From contig JAHDEE010000015.1 in NCBI GenBank assembly GCA_020629005.1, positions 1-32,478 on the forward strand: a stretch of 32,478 bases of DNA. Reading direction: 5' to 3'. How positions within the stretch are numbered: position 1 is the stretch's first letter; every line of letters begins with the position of its first letter. Below the pieces are notes generated by a model that searched no databases, was not told the origin of the DNA, and worked only from the letters and a program-made list of their open reading frames with translations. The position numbers and the translations under genes are program-made. Positions 6,345-31,581 of this stretch are shown piece after piece. Origin of the DNA: Chitinophagales bacterium (lineage in GTDB: Bacteria > Bacteroidota > Bacteroidia > Chitinophagales > UBA2359).

Positions 6345-7784
6345 GTCGGTAATGATTAGTTTTTCTGTAAAGCTTCTGCCGCTCTCTCCGATTATGTTGC
6401 AGAAGTAGCTTCCCGGCGGTAAATGACTGAGATCGAAAGAAGTCGAATTGCTTTCCGCGTGCACTTCTTTTCCTTGCATATCAAAGAAGCTCAGGTGAAA
6501 GCGCTCGGTCATTCCGGAAATGTTAAAGATGCCCTGCCCAGGATTCGGGTAGATAGACGGTTCAAAGTCTGCCATATCGTCTGTAGATAACATGCCTCCA
6601 TCACAAGCAATGCGGAAGCTGTCGAAGTAGGTTTTGCCGTTCAAAAAGCAAAAGAGTGCGCAACCGTTGTGGTCTTTGTCGCCCAAATCGTACTTGGTGA
6701 TATTTGGCGCACCTCCTGCAGTCCAGGAATCATAGGCATTCTCCGAGTTGAGATAGGATACCTGATCATCACCCTTACAGTACAAGAGATAAACAGGCGC
6801 TTCAGGAATCCATTCAAGCAAATGATTGTCCCGAAGATTTTCGCGCAATGGGTGATCCGGCATTGTCAAAAATGCATTGAAGACCGAATCTACCACAATA
6901 TCATTTGGCACCGGAGGGCAAAAATCATTGATAAAGCCAATGGAGTTCTCTCCGGAGAAGAATAGATCGGGCACGGTTTCGTCGTAGGGTGGAATCAGAA
7001 ATTCAGACACATCGTCGTATAAGTTATTGTAAATGGACTGATAAGCCATTACCAGATAAGGCAGATATCCAGGAGTTGGATATACTTCTTCTGAAATAAT
7101 CAGGTCTACTTGAGCCTCTACAAGGTCGTATGGCCCGGACATGGGTGCAGAGGCGGTTACGGTAAACTCGTCAGCGTACAATTCTTCGATAGTCTTTTGA
7201 GTAGCCATGGTATCATATCCTCCCTGCGAATAGCCAAATAGGAACAATTGTCCATTGAGCTCAAAACCAAGTGAATCGGCCATCATTCTACAGCTACGCA
7301 GCATGTCAACACTTGTATGTCCAGCTGAAAACTCGTGAATATAGGGATGAATGGGCACTCTTGGATCCGCAAAACCTAATCCGAGGTTATCCACCATTGT
7401 GACAGTATAACCAGTAGAGGCAAATATCATCCCTACCTCCCATTGACCGCCATTTCTGGTGCTGGCTCCGCTCATTCTCTTTGCCTGGGTTCCATGATGG
7501 TAAGCTGCGATGGGAAATTCGCAGCCCGCACTTTGTGGAACGGCAATTGCTCCGCTTGCCTGCACCAGGCTATCCATATGAAGGTATGGTGTGTTATAGA
7601 ATACCCGATAGTAGTTAACGGTATATTCTGGAACGATCAGACCAGCAGGCACCCCTAGATCATCCATCATATTGACTATATCTTCGGGAGTGTAGGTTTC
7701 GAGTAGTTCGTAGGAGACCAATTGTGCCCGCAGAGATATTGTGAACAGAAGGAATGACAACGCGAAAAGTAGTTTCTTCAGCAT
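6342..7784 (-). CDS. T9SS-secreted alpha/beta hydrolase
   Basis: The frame opens upstream to 7889, but the ATG at 7784 begins a clean signal peptide (MLKKLLFALSFLLFTISLRAQ), giving 480 residues. The body is an alpha/beta hydrolase: an HHGT oxyanion-type motif, nucleophile elbow GYSQGG with Ser186, a likely acid in YCKGDDQVS and a His in GDKDHNG. This resembles secretory lipase or prolyl-oligopeptidase-like esterases. The last ~75 residues (YPNPGQGIFNISG to KLIITD) form a type A T9SS C-terminal sorting domain, so the protein should cross the outer membrane by T9SS and be released or attached at the surface. A near-consensus -7 TATCTTTA sits just upstream of 7784. It is divergent from the beta-propeller gene at 7954. 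Its stop codon coincides with the terminal TAA of repeat copy A. Substrate unknown; a lipid or ester is most likely. Confidence 0.9.
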   Translation of the reverse strand: MLKKLLFALSFLLFTISLRAQLVSYELLETYTPEDIVNMMDDLGVPAGLIVPEYTVNYYRVFYNTPYLHMDSLVQASGAIAVPQSAGCEFPIAAYHHGTQAKRMSGASTRNGGQWEVGMIFASTGYTVTMVDNLGLGFADPRVPIHPYIHEFSAGHTSVDMLRSCRMMADSLGFELNGQLFLFGYSQGGYDTMATQKTIEELYADEFTVTASAPMSGPYDLVEAQVDLIISEEVYPTPGYLPYLVMAYQSIYNNLYDDVSEFLIPPYDETVPDLFFSGENSIGFINDFCPPVPNDIVVDSVFNAFLTMPDHPLRENLRDNHLLEWIPEAPVYLLYCKGDDQVSYLNSENAYDSWTAGGAPNITKYDLGDKDHNGCALFCFLNGKTYFDSFRIACDGGMLSTDDMADFEPSIYPNPGQGIFNISGMTERFHLSFFDMQGKEVHAESNSTSFDLSHLPPGSYFCNIIGESGRSFTEKLIITD

Positions 7785-7953
7785 CTTTTTTGCCCTAAAG
7801 ATATCAATTCCGCTGGGTAAAGAAGGCCAAAGACTGTCTTCTGCCCTGCGGTGAAAACCTTTTTCGAATTTATAGAAATCATAGCTCAATACCGTGTTCT
7901 TTCGAATTGGAGCCTTAATTTGTGGTATTATTGATCACATTGATCTTTTGATT

Positions 7954-24142: not shown

Positions 24143-24181
24143 AAAAGCCCGCGCCAGCAGAGATTGCTAGCGCGAGCTTTT
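24143..24181 (-). terminator. Terminator of the OmpA/coiled-coil gene cluster
   Basis: On the minus strand GCTCGCGCTAGCA pairs with TGCTGGCGCGGGC around a 5-nt loop, flanked by AAAA/TTTT. The two non-Watson-Crick positions become G-U pairs only in minus-strand RNA, while in plus-strand RNA they are A-C mismatches, so the hairpin works for minus-strand transcripts. A TTTTGCTTC tract follows. It lies 23 bp after the stop of the P-domain gene. Confidence 0.8.
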
Positions 24182-24204
24182 ATTTTGGTGGAAAACTTTC
24201 GGGA

Positions 24205-24915
24205 CTAGACTTTGATGTCCAGACTCCATGCTTTCAATCTTCCGGCATTCTTTCCATTGGCATCTGTGATAGAAAGGCTCCAAACTCCTTTGGCCTTTTC
24301 ACCCAGCAGGGCTTTCACGTCTGCTCCTTTGTAGGTCTTCTTGAGCGTCTTCTTGCCTGCACCGGCTTTCTTGTGCAAAACAACGGACTTGCCCGAAGGT
24401 GACTTCAAGCTCACCGTGAGCTTGCCGATATCTGTGTGGCTAATGTTTATTGCCGCTTTGAGGCTACTCACTTTACCTGCTTCCTGGCAGTTGTGTTTGC
24501 TCACCAGATCCGACTTGGCTTTTTCCGGAGTGTAGATTTCTGACTGTTTGGCATCCGCGAAAGTAAATCCGAGCGTCCAGCTGTTGAGGAAGCTCTTGCC
24601 TTTGGCGGCTGCATCTACTGCATTGATGGTCCAGTTGCCTTTACTCTTCTTACCCAGAAACTTCTTGAGTGCCTTGTTGTCGAATGCCAGGGAAAGGTGC
24701 TTTCCTTTCACTTTGGCTTTCTTGTGCAAGGTAAGGCTGGTACCATCTGGTCCTTCAAGCTTAAGGGTTAGGTTTTCTCCTTTGACATTGGAGAGTACTG
24801 CTCTCGCATGGATGTCTTCGATTACCGCGTCGCGAATAATCTTGATTTGATCAGAAGCACCTGCTTTGTCAGCTGGGATAGCTGTGTTGATACTTCGTTG
24901 CTTAGAATACTGCAT
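24205..24915 (-). CDS. Protein of two tandem P-domains (proprotein-convertase P/Homo B-like), no protease
   Basis: I use the ATG at 24915; the GTG three bases earlier is less likely. The 236-residue protein consists of two P/Homo B-like beta-sandwich domains (about 24-120 and 132-236). Each shows the pattern H-x-x(hydrophobic)-L-x-(V/L)-x-L-x-S/G-P-x-G-x-S-x-x-L-H-K-K, then G-K/E-x-S/A-K-G-x-W-x-(I/L)-x-x-x-D-A and S/A-W-(S/T)-L. Normally P-domains sit C-terminal to subtilisin-like or metallo-proteases; here no enzyme is attached. No signal peptide or sorting domain is visible, so it may be cytoplasmic or use another route. It is the last gene of the cluster, 41 bp after the KEV-repeat gene, and is followed by a terminator. 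Role unknown; a binding or capping subunit is plausible. Confidence 0.75.
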   Translation of the reverse strand: MQYSKQRSINTAIPADKAGASDQIKIIRDAVIEDIHARAVLSNVKGENLTLKLEGPDGTSLTLHKKAKVKGKHLSLAFDNKALKKFLGKKSKGNWTINAVDAAAKGKSFLNSWTLGFTFADAKQSEIYTPEKAKSDLVSKHNCQEAGKVSSLKAAINISHTDIGKLTVSLKSPSGKSVVLHKKAGAGKKTLKKTYKGADVKALLGEKAKGVWSLSITDANGKNAGRLKAWSLDIKV

Positions 24916-24956
24916 CACTATAATTTTTTACTTAATTCAAAGGTCGCTAGTTTGAT

Positions 24957-26990
24957 CTACTTCGCAAAACGCTCCAGTTTAGATGGGCTTTCGCCACCAT
25001 CGGCACTGGACTTGCCTGCATCCAAACCACGTTGCAGTTTGATCAGTTGATTCCACTTAGCATCTGCCGCGAGACCTGCCTGCTGTGCCCAGCTGGACGG
25101 ATCATGCATCTGGAATCGACTTCCGGCATCGGACAGCACCTTTTCCAGCTTTGCCGAAGAGGCCTGCGAAAGCTTACGAAGCGTCATATAACCTGCAGCA
25201 TGCAGTAATTGCTCAATCTTTGGTCCAATACCTTCCACCAACTGTAGAGTCTCAGGATTGAATCTTAGATCTCCGTATTTCGTACTTACTGTGATCTTGC
25301 CTCCTTTTGCTGACTTGGAGGATTTTGCTCCCTTAGCAGTCGATTTCATAGATGCGGCATCTTTGCCGCTGGCAGCCTTTGCAGACTTTTCCGACTTTGT
25401 GTTTGTAGCCGAGGTAGCGGATTTAGATGTTGTCATTGTTTTGGGGCTCGCTTTGCTCTTAGCGCCACTAGCTACAGCCTTACCTGACTTCCCGGACTTG
25501 ACAGTAGTTGTTTTGCCGATCAAATCGGCATTGGTGCCAGCTTCTACTTCTCTGCGCTCCACAACGGTGGCCTCCATAGTGGTCCGGGTTTCTCCTACCA
25601 CAGACTTGGAAACTTCAACCGCTTCCATTCCCTGCATCATTTGCATCAATGACTCCACATCAATCTGCTTCACCACTTCTACCTCACGAATGATTTCTAC
25701 AGGAACTTCCTTGATCACTTCGATTTCTTTGATGGTTTCCACCTCGTTAACGAGTGTGTACTCTTTAAGCTTTTCGATCGGAACTTCTTTGATGATCTCC
25801 ACTGGCTTAAGCACCTCTTTGATGACCTCTACAGGCACTTCGTGCTTAACCTTGACCTCTTTGACTTTCTCTTGACGGTTGACAACTGCAACAGCCTTCT
25901 CTTTGAGCAGCTCAACTTCTTTGATCTTCTCAACCGGCACTTCTCTCACAACCTCTACTTCCTTGATGACCTCTACAGGCTTGTTGACCACGACTTCTTT
26001 GACAAGCTCAACCTTTTCGATTTTCACCTTGTCAACATTCATTGGTACCACTTTTTCCTGAATGACTTCAACTGTCTTGATCTTCTCGACTGGTACCTCT
26101 TCGATCTGATGCACGATCTTCTGAACTTCCTTGATTACCTCAGTATTGATTGGCTGATTGCGTACAATTTCGATCTCCTTGATGATTTCGATATTGTTTT
26201 GCTCTACTACCGGCACAATTACTTCGGCATTGACCTGTACTTCTTTGATCACTTCAACTTCCTTGATCACTTCAACAGGAACTTCTTTGATCACTTCAAC
26301 TTCCTTGATCACTTCCTTCACAACTTCCTTGATCACCTCGACAGTGACCTCTTTTATCACTTCTACTTCCTTGATTACTTCTTTTGTTTCAACTACAGGA
26401 ACCAGCACTTCTTTGATCACTTCTACTTCGCTTAGTACTTCCACCGGCACTTCTACTTCTATGATGACTTCTTTGACCACTTCTACCGGCACCATCACTT
26501 CTTTGATTACCTCCACGGTCTTAATCACCTCTACAGGCACTTCAACCAATTTCACGACCTCTACTTCAACTTCTTTGGTAACCTCCTTGTTTTGAACAAC
26601 CGGTACTTCTTTGATCACTTCAATCTCCTTGATCACCTCTACTTCCTTGATTACAGGAACTTCCTTGACCACTTCGATTTCCTTGACTATTTCCACAGGC
26701 ACATGCTTGATTACCTCAACTGGTACCTCGCGGATCACTTCTACTTCCTTGATTACTTCTTTTTCATTGACGGTTGGCACTGCAATTTCTTTTACCAACT
26801 CAACACGCTTGATGCTGGGCTTGCCAGCAACCTTAACCGCAACTTCTTTCTTTATATCGACGGTTTTTATTTTCTGCTCACGGAATGATGGATCCTCCTT
26901 GAGGATACATTCGTATGCAATCAAAGCCTGCTTTTCATCAACTTTGGCTTTCTTGCATATCTGCTTAATGAGCTTACTCTTTTCGATCAT
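24957..26990 (-). CDS. KEV-repeat protein with HU-like N-terminus and helix-hairpin-helix C-terminus
   Basis: 677 residues, no signal peptide. Residues 1-35 (EKSKLIKQICKKAKVDEKQ...AYECILKE) resemble the first two helices of HU/IHF proteins. Residues ~40-460 are dozens of short units of the type EVIKEVEVIKEVPVE, a strictly alternating hydrophobic/charged pattern that may form beta-strands or a long fibre. A short unit VEVSKSVVGETRTT...VVERREVE (about 470-500) and a Ser/Lys/Ala-rich linker follow. The C-terminal ~80 residues (LVEGIGPKIEQLLHAAG ... HDPSSWAQQAGLA) are a helix-hairpin-helix domain of nucleic-acid-binding type. The VEVSK unit and the HHH are shared with the 1129-aa neighbour. Function unknown; a nucleoid-associated or structural protein is the best inference. 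Confidence 0.8.
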   Translation of the reverse strand: MIEKSKLIKQICKKAKVDEKQALIAYECILKEDPSFREQKIKTVDIKKEVAVKVAGKPSIKRVELVKEIAVPTVNEKEVIKEVEVIREVPVEVIKHVPVEIVKEIEVVKEVPVIKEVEVIKEIEVIKEVPVVQNKEVTKEVEVEVVKLVEVPVEVIKTVEVIKEVMVPVEVVKEVIIEVEVPVEVLSEVEVIKEVLVPVVETKEVIKEVEVIKEVTVEVIKEVVKEVIKEVEVIKEVPVEVIKEVEVIKEVQVNAEVIVPVVEQNNIEIIKEIEIVRNQPINTEVIKEVQKIVHQIEEVPVEKIKTVEVIQEKVVPMNVDKVKIEKVELVKEVVVNKPVEVIKEVEVVREVPVEKIKEVELLKEKAVAVVNRQEKVKEVKVKHEVPVEVIKEVLKPVEIIKEVPIEKLKEYTLVNEVETIKEIEVIKEVPVEIIREVEVVKQIDVESLMQMMQGMEAVEVSKSVVGETRTTMEATVVERREVEAGTNADLIGKTTTVKSGKSGKAVASGAKSKASPKTMTTSKSATSATNTKSEKSAKAASGKDAASMKSTAKGAKSSKSAKGGKITVSTKYGDLRFNPETLQLVEGIGPKIEQLLHAAGYMTLRKLSQASSAKLEKVLSDAGSRFQMHDPSSWAQQAGLAADAKWNQLIKLQRGLDAGKSSADGGESPSKLERFAK
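25630..26790 (-). repeat. KEV-coding degenerate tandem repeat DNA
   Basis: Inside the KEV-repeat gene the DNA is a long array of 18- to 24-bp degenerate units, on the plus strand of the form CTTCTTTGATCACTTCAA, encoding EVIKEV-type hexapeptides. Open frames on the opposite strand across this stretch are consequences of the repeat and are not genes. Confidence 0.85.
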
Positions 26991-27041
26991 GATTAGAATG
27001 GTTTATTTGGGGGTAATAAATTGTGTTTATCAAATTGTTGT

Positions 27042-27117
27042 GAACCTTTACAGAAAAGGTTCTTACGCACAGCAAGACGGAGTTACGAAAACAAAATTCC
27101 CATAACTCCGTTTGCTG
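27042..27117 (-). promoter_or_regulatory. Two hairpins in the gap between the 1129-aa and 677-aa genes
   Basis: The 144-bp spacer contains a stem CAGCAA-ACGGAGTTA / TAACTCCGT-c-TTGCTG (27070-27117, 15 bp with one bulge) and a second hairpin GAACCTTT/AAAGGTTC (27042-27062). The first lies 18 bp after the stop of the upstream gene. They could attenuate, terminate part of the transcripts, or protect a processed 3' end, adjusting the ratio of the two repeat proteins. Confidence 0.6.
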
Positions 27118-27134
27118 GTATCAATATCTATGTC

Positions 27135-30100
27135 TTACTTCTTTCGGCCTCCATCCAGTTCATCCTGCCACTTCTGGAGTTCTTCCCATTTTCCCTGGCT
27201 AGCTAGCTTAGCTTGCTTAGCCCAGGTGCTAGGATCGTGCATTTTATAGCGAGGGCCAGCATCGTCTAGTATCTTTTGCAAGCTAGTGGTCTTGGTCTTT
27301 GAGAGTTGCTCAAAAGTCATGATTTCCGCCGCGTTGAGATGCTCCTCAATCTTAGGTCCAATGCCTTCAATCTTCTTCAGATCATCTTTTTTCGCTTTTC
27401 CTGCTGGCTTCTCGGACTTCACAGACTTAGTCGACTTGGTCGATTTTGTTGTCTTTGCCTTGGCACCAGAATCATCTGTAATCTCCCTTCTTTCCACAAT
27501 ACGAGATTCTTTGGTTGTACGGGTTTCACCAACAACCTGCTTAGACACCTCGACTGTATTCATCTTGGAGATCATTCCTTTGAGTGTGGCATAATCGATT
27601 CCTTTTACCACTTCGACTTCGCGAATCACTTCTACAGGGACCTCTTTGATCACCTCGATTTCCCGAATGACTTCTACTTCGACAGGAACTTCTTTAACGA
27701 TTTCGATTTCTTTTACTACTTCAACCGGAACTTCCTTGATTACTTCGACCTCTTTTGGCTTCTTCGCCAGCTGCTCTTCGAGCTTAGTGATTTGCTTGGC
27801 AAGTTTGCCAGCCTCATTCTGGGCATCCTTTCCAATCTTGTTGGCATCTTTCCACTTCAATTCGAGCGAACCGTAGCGCTCCTTCCATTTTTCGGTTTCT
27901 GCTTCATGGTTTTGACCGAGAGCGCTTAGTTTCTGCTCAACGGAGGCAACAGCCTTCTGCAAGTCCTCAACAGACTTGGTGGCTATTTCGTGATCGCTTT
28001 GCAGTGCATTATATTTTTGCTTTAAATCACCAAATCCCTGCGCTGTTTTACTGGCTTGGTCAAACTGCTTTTGCAAACCCGCATATCGATCCTTCCATTG
28101 ATGCAGATCTGAAATTCTCTGGTTCGCAGTCTTGTATTCGCGGTCCAGGTTTTCAAATTTGCTTTTCCACTCTTTCATTCCCTGCTCGTCAACCTTGACC
28201 ACTTCCACTTCTTTGACCACCTCAACTTCTTTGATCACCTCCACTTCTTTCACTACTTCCACTTCTTTGATCACCTCCACCTCTTTCACTACTTCCACTT
28301 CTTTAATCACCTCAACTTCCGTCGGCTTCTTAGCCAGGCGCTCATTTAGGTCGGCATTGACTTTGTTGAATTCGGCGATTCGAGCTTCCAATTCCTTGCT
28401 ACGTCCGTCGAGTTGTTCGAACCTGGCCTTCCATTCGCGCATTCCAGCGTCATCGACCTTTATCAGTTCAACCTCTCGGATGACCTCTTTGATGACCTCT
28501 TTAGGCTTTTCCTGCAATTTGAGATTGAGCTGCTTGATATCCGTATTCAGCTTCTGGTTCGCCTGTTCGAGATTTGCAAACTTGTTCTTCTGTCTTCCGA
28601 AATCTCCTTCCAGATCGGCAAACTTCTTCTTCCATTGGCTAAGAGCAGTTTCGTCAATTTTGACTACTTCAACTTCTTTTACGACCTCCTTGATGACTTC
28701 CTTAGGCTTGGCATCAAACTGCAACTTAAGGCTGTTGAATCTGCTGTTCAGTTGTTTTTGCTGCTCTTCAAAGTCACCTGCTCGCTTTTTTGCTGCGTTC
28801 AGGTTTATTTCAAGGGTTTGATACTTTCGCTTCCACTCATTTACAGCTGCTTCGTCAACTTTGACCACTTCTTTGACCACCTCTTTCGGCTTGGCCTGAA
28901 GTTCCTGATTCATTTTGGCAATGCGAGCATTCAGCTGCTCCAGATTGCCTTCTAGCTCTTTGATTCTGCCACCTGCTTTTCCGTGATCCTTCTCAAGACC
29001 AGCATACATCTGCTTCCATTCGTTCAAAGCAGTTTCGTCTACTTTAACAACCTCTTTGGTTACCTCCTTGATCACTTCTTTCGGCTTGGCCTGAAGCTGA
29101 ATATTCAAGGTCGAAATCTTATTGTTTAGTTCCTGATTTCCTTTTGTGAGTTCCAGGGACTTCTTATTGGCAGCAGTAAGTTCGTTTTGTAGAGTTGTGT
29201 ACTTGGCTTTCCATTGGTTCACCGCCGTTTCATCGACCTTTACGACTTCCTTCACCACTTCCTTGGGTTTGGCAGCAAGCTTTACGTTCAATTCGGACAA
29301 GCTGGCATTTAGCTTTTGATACTCCGCATCTTTTTGCTTCAATTGAGCATTCAGCTTACCTATGTCTCCCTCAAGCGTTGCATACTTCTGCTTCCACTGA
29401 TTTAAGGCAGTGTCGTCTACCTTGACCACTTCCTTTACAATTTCCTTTGGTTTGGCCTGGAATTGCAAGTTAAGTGCAGCGTATTTCTTTTCCAGATCGC
29501 CGAAACTGGTTTTCCCTTGTTTTAATTCACCTTCGAGATCGGCATATTTCTTTTTCCAGGCATTGATTTCAGAGCTGTAGTCCTTTGGTTTAGCTGCCAA
29601 TTTTTCGGTGAGATTCTGGATTGACAAATTAAGATCCTTGATCTTTGTAGGAGATTTGTCGTCATAAGACTTGCGTAAACCGCCAAAAAGGCCTTGCCAC
29701 TTGGTGACTTTCTCTTTGTTTACACTTTCCTTTTGAATATCTATTCCTTCCTTTTCAGCCTCTACCTTTTTCACCGTATCATGAAGACTCTTTACTGATA
29801 GGTCCAGGGCCTCATACTTCTTTTTCCATAGGTCAACAGCGGCCTGATCAACCTTTACCACTTCTTTCACCACTTCAACTTCCTTTGGCTTCTTCTTGAG
29901 CTCTTCCTCTAGTTCACCAATTTTGGCCTTTGCCGAGTTATGCTGACCATCGAGATCGCCATATTTCTTTTTCCACTCTGCAATTGCGGCTTCGTCAATC
30001 TTCACGACTTCCTTGACCACTTCTTTGGGCTTCTTCTTGAGTTCTTCCTCAAGCTGGGCGATTTTCTTTGCCTGCGCTGCCTTGTCAGCTTTCAAAGTGT

Positions 30101-30524
30101 CCTGGGTTTTTAAAGCGGCCTTCAGATCTGCATAGATTTTGTCTTCCTTCTGCTTCGCATCTGTCTTGAACTTGCTGAAGGTTCCATCAAGGTCAGCAAA
30201 TTTGGTGTTGAGACCAACGTAGCTTTTGTCCTTTGCTTCGTACTTTGATTTCCAATCAGATAACTGACCTTCGAAAGCTTTACTGTCTTTGAGTAAGCCT
30301 TGATATTGCTTATCCAGCTTACCGTATTTACTTTCATAACCATCGTAATCAGACTTTAATCTATTATAGTTCGTCTTTTGAGCGTTTAGATCTCCTTCGA
30401 GTGAGCCTACTTGACCCTCCAAAAGGCTGATTCGCTTACCTCTTAGAAGCCATCCGATCAACCATCCGATCAGGCCTGCAACCAGAAGAAACAAGAATGG
30501 AAGAATGAAACACTTTAAAATCAT
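27135..30524 (-). CDS. Membrane-anchored giant repetitive coiled-coil protein with C-terminal HHH domain
   Basis: 1129 residues. One N-terminal transmembrane segment (about 4-27, ILPFLFLLVAGLIGWLIGWLL) is followed by RGKR, so by the positive-inside rule the long remainder should be cytoplasmic. Residues ~40-900 contain about ten repeats of 70-90 residues, each a heptad-like coiled coil closing with KPKEVVKEVVKVDE-x-A-x-x-x-WK-x-KY. A stretch of seven EVEV[IV]K units comes late (about 735-776). Then EVEVIKEVPVE-type strands, VEVSKQVVGETRTT...IVERREI, a KSTKS linker and a helix-hairpin-helix domain (KIEGIGPKIEEHLNAAE ... HDPSTWAKQAKLA). The same C-terminal module is on the 677-aa neighbour. It lies 35 bp after the OmpA-like gene. 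The layout suggests a membrane-to-DNA tether or filament; this is inference. The name and mechanism are unknown. Confidence 0.8.
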   Translation of the reverse strand: MILKCFILPFLFLLVAGLIGWLIGWLLRGKRISLLEGQVGSLEGDLNAQKTNYNRLKSDYDGYESKYGKLDKQYQGLLKDSKAFEGQLSDWKSKYEAKDKSYVGLNTKFADLDGTFSKFKTDAKQKEDKIYADLKAALKTQDTLKADKAAQAKKIAQLEEELKKKPKEVVKEVVKIDEAAIAEWKKKYGDLDGQHNSAKAKIGELEEELKKKPKEVEVVKEVVKVDQAAVDLWKKKYEALDLSVKSLHDTVKKVEAEKEGIDIQKESVNKEKVTKWQGLFGGLRKSYDDKSPTKIKDLNLSIQNLTEKLAAKPKDYSSEINAWKKKYADLEGELKQGKTSFGDLEKKYAALNLQFQAKPKEIVKEVVKVDDTALNQWKQKYATLEGDIGKLNAQLKQKDAEYQKLNASLSELNVKLAAKPKEVVKEVVKVDETAVNQWKAKYTTLQNELTAANKKSLELTKGNQELNNKISTLNIQLQAKPKEVIKEVTKEVVKVDETALNEWKQMYAGLEKDHGKAGGRIKELEGNLEQLNARIAKMNQELQAKPKEVVKEVVKVDEAAVNEWKRKYQTLEINLNAAKKRAGDFEEQQKQLNSRFNSLKLQFDAKPKEVIKEVVKEVEVVKIDETALSQWKKKFADLEGDFGRQKNKFANLEQANQKLNTDIKQLNLKLQEKPKEVIKEVIREVELIKVDDAGMREWKARFEQLDGRSKELEARIAEFNKVNADLNERLAKKPTEVEVIKEVEVVKEVEVIKEVEVVKEVEVIKEVEVVKEVEVVKVDEQGMKEWKSKFENLDREYKTANQRISDLHQWKDRYAGLQKQFDQASKTAQGFGDLKQKYNALQSDHEIATKSVEDLQKAVASVEQKLSALGQNHEAETEKWKERYGSLELKWKDANKIGKDAQNEAGKLAKQITKLEEQLAKKPKEVEVIKEVPVEVVKEIEIVKEVPVEVEVIREIEVIKEVPVEVIREVEVVKGIDYATLKGMISKMNTVEVSKQVVGETRTTKESRIVERREITDDSGAKAKTTKSTKSTKSVKSEKPAGKAKKDDLKKIEGIGPKIEEHLNAAEIMTFEQLSKTKTTSLQKILDDAGPRYKMHDPSTWAKQAKLASQGKWEELQKWQDELDGGRKK
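28198..28320 (-). repeat. 18-bp in-frame minisatellite (EVEV[IV]K)
   Basis: About seven near-identical 18-bp units encode EVEVIK and EVEVVK alternately, giving a 36-bp higher-order period. The units are much more alike at DNA level than the rest of the gene's repeats, so this is the place where length variation by slippage would be expected, always in steps of six residues. Confidence 0.75.
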
Positions 30525-30559
30525 GGTTTATTTTTTAGGTGGTATTAATTAATGAATGC

Positions 30560-31525
30560 CTACTGAAGTGTAATTTCTACTCTTCTATTCTTTGCTTTTC
30601 CATCTTCAGTGGTGTTAGGAGCAATAGGCTTGTCTGGCCCAAATCCATTTACGCTCATCTGCTTCATAGAGATTCCTCCATTCTTGCTAAGATAAGATTG
30701 CACAAATGCCGCCCGTTCCTTGGATAGGTTTACATTGTAGGCTCTGTTTCCTACGTTATCTGTGTGTCCTGCAACACCCAACTTTGCCCCTTTGACATTA
30801 TCGAGGTAGTAGATAATATCAGAGATATCTTTCCTTTGTTTTGGTGTTAGATTTATTGTGTTTTGATTGGTTCCAAAGTACACGGTTAAGGGTTTTCCAA
30901 CCAATCGTTTTTTGACTTCTGCGATCCGATCGTTGCCCTTTTCTTTCTGTTTGAAAGCAAATTGCACTCCCTGCACCAGTTTGTCGCCTTTAAATTTGTC
31001 TTTTCCCACTACTTGACTTGCCAATGCCATTTGTGCGGCTGGAACTCCCAGTTTCATCATCATCTTCTTCACATCATTGGCCCTTGCCAACCCAAGATCA
31101 GGGTGAATACTGTTGTTCTTTTCACTTTTTTCATAGTAGCCAGTAATTAAGAGAGATCTCTCGGGATTCTTCTTCAGGTATTCGGCTGTCTCTTTTGTGG
31201 CCCCTTTCAAGCTAACACTTTGCGGGGTGAGATAATTAAATCCTGAATTTTTGAAACTGATATAGTCTTCCGCTTTTGTTACAAAGGCTGACTTGTCTGC
31301 AATCGTCCAAGAGGTCTTTGCGACAACTGGTGCGGCTTTTGTCGCTGCCGGTGCAACTGTCTTAGCTGCTGCTGCGGCAGCACCTGTCGTTGTGACTGCG
31401 GCTGCAGTAGAAGCAGCGGCGGTTCCCCCGGTTAAGAGTGGACAGAGAAAGAGGTTGAATAGGAAGGCTCCGAGCAGACACCAGCCCAAAAGCATCATAA
31501 TCCAAAAGGGTACTGAATTTTTCAT
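30560..31525 (-). CDS. Membrane-anchored protein with two OmpA-like domains
   Basis: The frame opens at 31576, but the ATG at 31525 (MKNSVPFWIMMLLGWCLLGAF) begins a hydrophobic segment, giving 321 residues. After that anchor (about 5-31) comes an Ala/Thr-rich linker. A first domain (about 75-195; SLLITGYYEKSE, LGLARANDVKKMMMKLGVP) has OmpA/MotB topology but lacks the conserved ligand pattern. The second (about 210-321; YFGTNQNTINLTPKQRKDI, AGHTDNVGNRAYNVNLSKERA, NGFGPDKP, NRRVEI) keeps the TD-x-x-G...N-x-x-LS-x-x-RA signature that binds diaminopimelate in peptidoglycan. An uncleaved helix with a peptidoglycan-binding domain recalls MotB. It is first in the cluster, with a consensus -7 box 49 nt upstream; the coiled-coil gene follows after 35 bp. 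Confidence 0.88.
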   Translation of the reverse strand: MKNSVPFWIMMLLGWCLLGAFLFNLFLCPLLTGGTAAASTAAAVTTTGAAAAAAKTVAPAATKAAPVVAKTSWTIADKSAFVTKAEDYISFKNSGFNYLTPQSVSLKGATKETAEYLKKNPERSLLITGYYEKSEKNNSIHPDLGLARANDVKKMMMKLGVPAAQMALASQVVGKDKFKGDKLVQGVQFAFKQKEKGNDRIAEVKKRLVGKPLTVYFGTNQNTINLTPKQRKDISDIIYYLDNVKGAKLGVAGHTDNVGNRAYNVNLSKERAAFVQSYLSKNGGISMKQMSVNGFGPDKPIAPNTTEDGKAKNRRVEITLQ

Positions 31526-31573
31526 TTTGATTAACGGCGTTTTTATACTGTAATGAGCACAGATTTGAGACTG

Positions 31574-31581
31574 CAAATATA
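31574..31581 (-). promoter_or_regulatory. -7 octamer TATATTTG upstream of the OmpA-like gene
   Basis: A full TAnnTTTG match on the minus strand, 48 nt upstream of the ATG at 31525. Together with the terminator at 24143-24181 it defines a candidate transcription unit of four genes over about 7.4 kb. There is no good TTG at the -33 position, only a T-rich run. Confidence 0.5.

Follow-up and report, generated by a model that had tools for sequence, protein, structure and literature searches.

Organization of the Gene Cluster

The window, i.e., the whole stretch of DNA that was analyzed (32,478 nucleotides), is contig C94 of the Bacteroidota genome G000. It contains four genes, here called P1 to P4, which are all located on the minus strand, as had been stated in an earlier note on this DNA; their ORFs and, apart from a weak HU-like call in P3, their domains were confirmed. 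The features of the cluster, in the direction of transcription, are as follows:

31574-31581, minus strand: -7 box TATATTTG (TAnnTTTG) of the Bacteroidota type, 56 nt ahead of the P1 ATG
30560-31525, minus strand: P1, ATG start; N-terminal membrane helix and two OmpA-like domains
27135-30524, minus strand: P2, 1129 aa; membrane helix, coiled coil, KEV stretch, and C-terminal HHH module
27138-27417, minus strand: HHH module of P2, DDLKKIEGIGPKIEE...MHDPSTWAKQAKLASQGKWEELQKWQDELDGG; phmmer match to 8yy9_O at E 1.3e-7
about 27074-27117, minus strand: hairpin between P2 and P3, resembling a terminator or attenuator, without a U-tract in the window
24957-26990, minus strand: P3, 677 aa; KEV array and C-terminal HHH module
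24205-24915, minus strand: P4, 236 aa, ATG start; two P-domains
24143-24181, minus strand: intrinsic terminator behind P4, 18-bp stem, then UUUUGCUU

An alternative start codon of P1, TTG at 31576, overlaps the promoter box. Four relatives retrieved by a genome-contig search are uncultured Saprospiraceae. Elsewhere in the window, positions 6345-7880 (minus strand) encode a product that partially matches a secretory lipase and ends in a Por-type sorting tail (PF18962), i.e., ordinary type IX cargo.

Transcription Signals

The -7 box reported at 31574 is indeed present, and the same place is occupied by a box in the congener locus L055. Of 33 P1 loci, 8 have the TAnnTTTG pattern within the 120 nt ahead of the gene, compared to 2.7 expected, and no clear -33 element was found with the P1 upstream box. 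At the other end of the cluster, the terminator proposed behind P4 is reproduced by folding (-30 kcal/mol, z -8.1).

The assumption that the four genes form one transcription unit is doubtful, as a strong terminator-like hairpin, missed by the earlier note, is situated at the end of P2 in eight of nine P2-P3 gaps (z from -3.2 to -7.4). The position of this hairpin is kept, while its sequences are unrelated. In the window, the gap is 144 nt long and the hairpin has z of -5.6 and -5.7; the tested gaps between P1 and P2 and between P3 and P4 contain no such hairpin. The hairpin-bearing gaps are those of the window and of L010, L036, L037, and L054-L057. U-runs follow the hairpin in L056 and L036, and a TAnnTTTG box is located inside the gap in L056 and L057. 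The hairpin may thus be a terminator or attenuator that closes a P1-P2 unit; transcripts of P3-P4 would then arise by read-through or start at a promoter of their own.

Conservation of the P1-P2 Pair

With P1 as the lone query, we searched 41 relatives and 395 genomes of the phylum. At E 1e-40, P1 was detected in 23 of the 395 genomes, and hence is widespread but patchy in Bacteroidota. Far from being scattered, the first two genes stay together: in 51 of 52 loci picked by P1, which span at least five families but are not independent since many P1 matches come from one genus, the next gene on the same strand is P2-like (membrane helix plus coil), and it carries the HHH module in 47 of 52. Among the loci lacking the module in the next gene, L035 and L061 are cut by contig ends, the metagenome-assembled genomes being fragmented, and in L068 the module is encoded one gene further on. 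Two P1 loci have no HHH nearby, namely L062, where the neighbor is a 141-aa membrane/coil protein, and L122, where P2 itself is absent. Two more P1-P2 pairs, L130 and L139, were found by other routes; at L130 2223-4708 (G035:C16), rplU, rpmA, P1, and P2 follow each other in this order on one strand.

The genome G000 contains two full four-gene sets (contigs C94 and C279) and two P1-P2 pairs (C270 and C304). The flanking genes differ among these four loci, and therefore the pair constitutes a unit of its own. Since P2 outside the close relatives of the window is only 153-247 aa long, the core of the system is a double-OmpA protein and a small membrane HHH protein.

P1, a Double OmpA-Like Protein

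P1 matches the OmpA family (PF00691, 3.3e-28) in two stretches. The first domain (about residues 106-193) is degenerate, and the second (about 197-320) is canonical; both were predicted as alpha/beta by AlphaFold2, the first one at lower confidence. The DAP-binding residues Asp256 and Arg271 of the second domain, 15 residues apart, are conserved in 28 of 28 P1 proteins. This spacing is the same as in the DAP-binding OmpA of A. baumannii. Foldseek matched the P1 fold to the DAP-bound structures of that protein (3td3-3td5). The first domain lacks the wall-binding Asp and has invariant positions of its own, G-x-Y-x3-E-x-N and LGxxRA. Taken together, the Asp/Arg pair and the fold match make the claimed anchor between the wall and the inner membrane likely, with peptidoglycan binding predicted for the second domain. 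The balance of Lys and Arg around the P1 helix is undecided (15 proteins with more after it, 14 with more before), and the OmpA domains were placed in the periplasm because they need it to work.

Proteins of the Pal, YiaD, and OprF type have the same canonical DAP-binding OmpA domain as the second domain of P1. They differ in that P1 has a second, degenerate OmpA domain, an almost constant neighbor in P2, and no lipobox that we could see. P1 scores below all NCBIfam cut-offs shown. In the locus L073 4955-6571 (G018:C35), profile matches suggest a P1 with three OmpA-like domains.

The description of P1 as MotB-like holds for its OmpA domain and fails for its membrane helix, which contains no Asp or Glu in any of 28 P1 proteins and hence lacks the acidic proton-path residue of MotB-type stators. 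The same feature bears on the comparison with Zorya. ZorA and ZorB assemble in the inner membrane, where their complex combines an OmpA/MotB part that binds the wall with a long coiled-coil tail in the cytoplasm, and P1 matches the ZorB models at 1.7e-11, although through the OmpA domain only. P2, in contrast to the multi-helix stator partner ZorA, has a single helix and lacks a MotA/ExbB domain (no MotA_ExbB match in Pfam), and no ZorC or ZorD was seen beside P1-P2. A Zorya-like motor was therefore rejected as the identity of the pair, given the missing stator domain and acidic helix residue.

P2, a Membrane-Bound Coiled Coil of Variable Length

The coil of P2 in the window consists of about ten repeats of 61-67 aa, with KPKEVVKEVVKVDE linkers between them. 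One membrane helix was predicted in 26 of 28 P2 proteins, and in 52 of 53 P2 proteins Lys and Arg are more numerous after the helix than before it. Hence, the stalk is predicted to be cytoplasmic (N-out, C-in), in agreement with the proposal of a membrane-anchored cytoplasmic protein ending in HHH. The length of P2 across loci varies from 153 to 3045 aa, and in the minimal form of about 180 aa the coil is very short. The longest protein (L060 7957-17094, G004:C655) has seven HHH modules at its end. The assignment of P2 to SMC/Rad50, JetC, or LmuB was rejected, as these similarities are those of coiled coils and the NCBIfam matches are far below the cut-offs.

P3 and P4, Probable Additions in One Lineage

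P3 was found behind P2 in nine loci, all within a single clade of 11 P1 proteins (support 100/100), and P4 is the next gene in five of them. The KEV array of P3 is about 390 aa long with a period of 14, and a shared segment VEVSKxVVGETRTT was observed in P3. No signal peptide or membrane helix was predicted in P3, one reading with a spurious 5' extension having been set aside. A separate 936-aa KEV/HHH protein, with no adjoining P1 or P2, is encoded at L014 6986-9796 (G000:C151). AlphaFold2 modeled the KEV array of P3 with low confidence, as disordered and without a fold; the P3 model (mean pLDDT 40.5) is informative for the two ends of the protein only.

Of the features attributed earlier to this 677-aa protein, the KEV array and the HHH end were reproduced, whereas the HU-like end is weak. 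The N-terminus is a helical hairpin in the AlphaFold2 model, and PF00216 matches P3 homologues at E 0.013 and 0.078, both sub-threshold and in two of seven proteins only. The beta-arm region of HU was not found in P3, the KEV repeats starting where the arms would be expected; unlike HU and IHF, the P3 end thus has only the hairpin.

P4 consists of two P_proprotein stretches (PF01483, 3e-31), and Pfam confirmed that the two P-domains come without a protease. In the proprotein convertases, P-domains are located behind a secreted subtilisin-type protease, whereas P4 lacks such a domain, and none of five homologues is predicted to have a signal peptide or membrane helix. P4 thus seems to be a P-domain protein of the cytoplasm, an unusual case; no PDB relative was found by sequence at 0.01.

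The long repetitive coil, the KEV arrays common to P2 and P3, the range of lengths (153 to 3045 aa), and the several paralogous copies per genome are features that a structural filament might have. In that case, P2, P3, and P4 would polymerise into a membrane-linked cytoskeletal scaffold that gives cells their shape or filaments their stiffness, and P1 would serve as the wall foot only. This explanation is possible but unlikely: the very short coil of the minimal P2 makes polymerisation unlikely as the ancestral role, and the KEV array obtained no fold from AlphaFold2.

The HHH Module and Its Possible Partner

The claim that P2 and P3 share their C-terminal module was confirmed by sequence comparison; in both proteins HHH_5 scores below the Pfam cut-off. 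The closest solved relatives identified by phmmer are the photosynthetic reaction-centre protein-O (8yy9_O, E 1.3e-7) and a complex I subunit (9wqv_a, 6e-4), and the C-terminus of NuoE (NF009040) matches the module as well. Protein-O from the RC-LH1 complex of Dinoroseobacter shibae (8YY9; PMC12079452) resembles P2 in that an N-terminal membrane part is connected through a flexible linker with this HHH module at the C-terminus. It differs in its two membrane helices, in the absence of a coiled coil and of an OmpA partner, and in belonging to a photosynthetic complex.

The module also extends ribosomal proteins. A C-terminal copy is present on bL27, recognized by eye from the start MAHKKGxGSSKNGRxSxSKRLGVK, in five relatives' genomes (L128, L129, L131, L132, L133), and on bL20 in two genomes, G000 and G002 (L011 8346-9653 and L135 1536-2219); the bL20 of G000 itself, identified by Pfam, carries two copies. 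In yet another context, the module follows a CBM48-like glycogen-binding domain, named by eye, at L138 2359-3084 (G004:C52).

These extensions, together with the rplU-rpmA-P1-P2 order in one genome, might indicate that the HHH adaptor binds the large ribosomal subunit, or further complexes with an HHH tag, and keeps them close to the inner membrane and the wall. We consider such docking doubtful and give it a small chance. Among the five genomes with tagged bL27, P1 was detected only in G036; NuoE and protein-O are not ribosomal; and the function of the module was called obscure in the study of protein-O (PMC12079452).

Another candidate client is the chromosome. According to the earlier note, DNA binding by the HHH modules, and by the HU-like end in P3, would link the nucleoid to the membrane and the wall. 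The predicted cytoplasmic location of P2 and the match of one P3 homologue to PF00216 are consistent with this, and the HHH fold resembles the N-domains of RadA/Rad51 and the thumbs of polymerases (the fold list for P3 covers the HHH module only). However, NusA AR2, which is not a DNA-binding case, matches about equally well, and the closest relatives in sequence reside on protein-O, NuoE, bL27, and bL20. DNA-binding (HhH)2 domains are characterized by a pair of intact hairpins and a basic surface. The core of the module is near neutral (net charge -0.9 on average), its second hairpin (AGPRY) is degenerate, and the marginal HU part has no arms. The nucleoid link is thus unsupported, and we regard it as distinctly unlikely. 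DNA binding by the module itself is possible but not favored, because its relatives are found on other complexes, its core is near neutral, and its fold families have protein or nucleic-acid partners; a protein client is judged likelier than DNA.

Relation to Type VI Secretion

TagL of the type VI secretion system (T6SS) is, similarly to P1, an inner-membrane protein with an OmpA-like part for anchoring to the wall, whereas the DotU domain of the TagL/TssL pair is absent from P1-P2. The TssNQOPR paper (PMC10781749) makes no mention of an OmpA domain. As PF05943 misses the TssC of T6SSiii, another TssC search was used; it found TssC in 9 of 23 genomes with P1, compared to 1.4 expected. In G287, a P1-P2 pair lies within a T6SSiii cluster, where it immediately follows tssB, tssC, and two tssD genes (L126 12756-16930, G287:C1). 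One could suppose from these observations that the pair fastens a contractile T6SSiii machine to the wall. This is highly improbable, as the overlap follows two families, G287 is the only genome with a cluster link (1 of 54 P1-P2 loci), and P1-P2 occurs mostly without a T6SS. A general role in T6SS is refuted, as TssC is absent from G000, which has no T6SSiii TssC, and from 14 of the 23 P1 genomes.

A Proposed P1-P2 Complex and Its Possible Role

We favor, with moderate confidence, an inner-membrane complex of P1 and P2 through which peptidoglycan is linked to a client in the cytoplasm. P1 would cross the membrane once and extend its two OmpA-like domains into the periplasm; the second of these would grip the wall, while the first, having lost the wall-binding Asp, would keep an invariant site of its own. 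P2 would cross the membrane once in the opposite sense, sending a coiled-coil stalk into the cytoplasm with an HHH adaptor at its tip. In the lineage of the window, the stalk would have been lengthened by about ten repeats, and P3, soluble and P2-like with its KEV array and HHH module, would have been added together with P4, probably as extra parts of a cytoplasmic scaffold; for P4, this role is a guess.

We infer both the contact between P1 and P2 and their tether role from several observations, namely the linkage in 51 of 52 loci, the invariance of D256/R271 (28/28), the match to the OmpA fold, and the topology of P2 (52/53). The second full four-gene copy in G000 and the confinement of P3 loci to one clade with 100/100 support also argue for the tether. 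It is weakened by the undecided charge balance of P1, by the two loci without HHH nearby (L062, L122), and by the non-independence of loci from one genus.

A broader picture can be drawn as a long shot. P1-P2 might be a Bacteroidota-wide linker whose HHH adaptor reads a docking code on ribosomal proteins and membrane complexes, holding translation or respiration to the wall, with Saprospiraceae having built a long KEV/P-domain scaffold upon it.

In agreement with the earlier note, we found no described system with the composition of P1-P4 in the literature searched, the coverage of which is partial; within the same partial coverage, nothing to the point was found on COG3743 or on ribosomal HHH extensions. 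As far as this literature goes, P1-P2 is an undescribed gene pair present in several families of Bacteroidota. Being kept together across these families with no described function found, it makes a good target for study. If the link between the wall and the cytoplasm is true, a phylum in which many members can be cultivated would have a connection of the envelope distinct from both Tol-Pal and motors, and the obscure but widespread HHH module of ribosomal and energy-converting proteins would obtain a setting in which its partner can be searched for.
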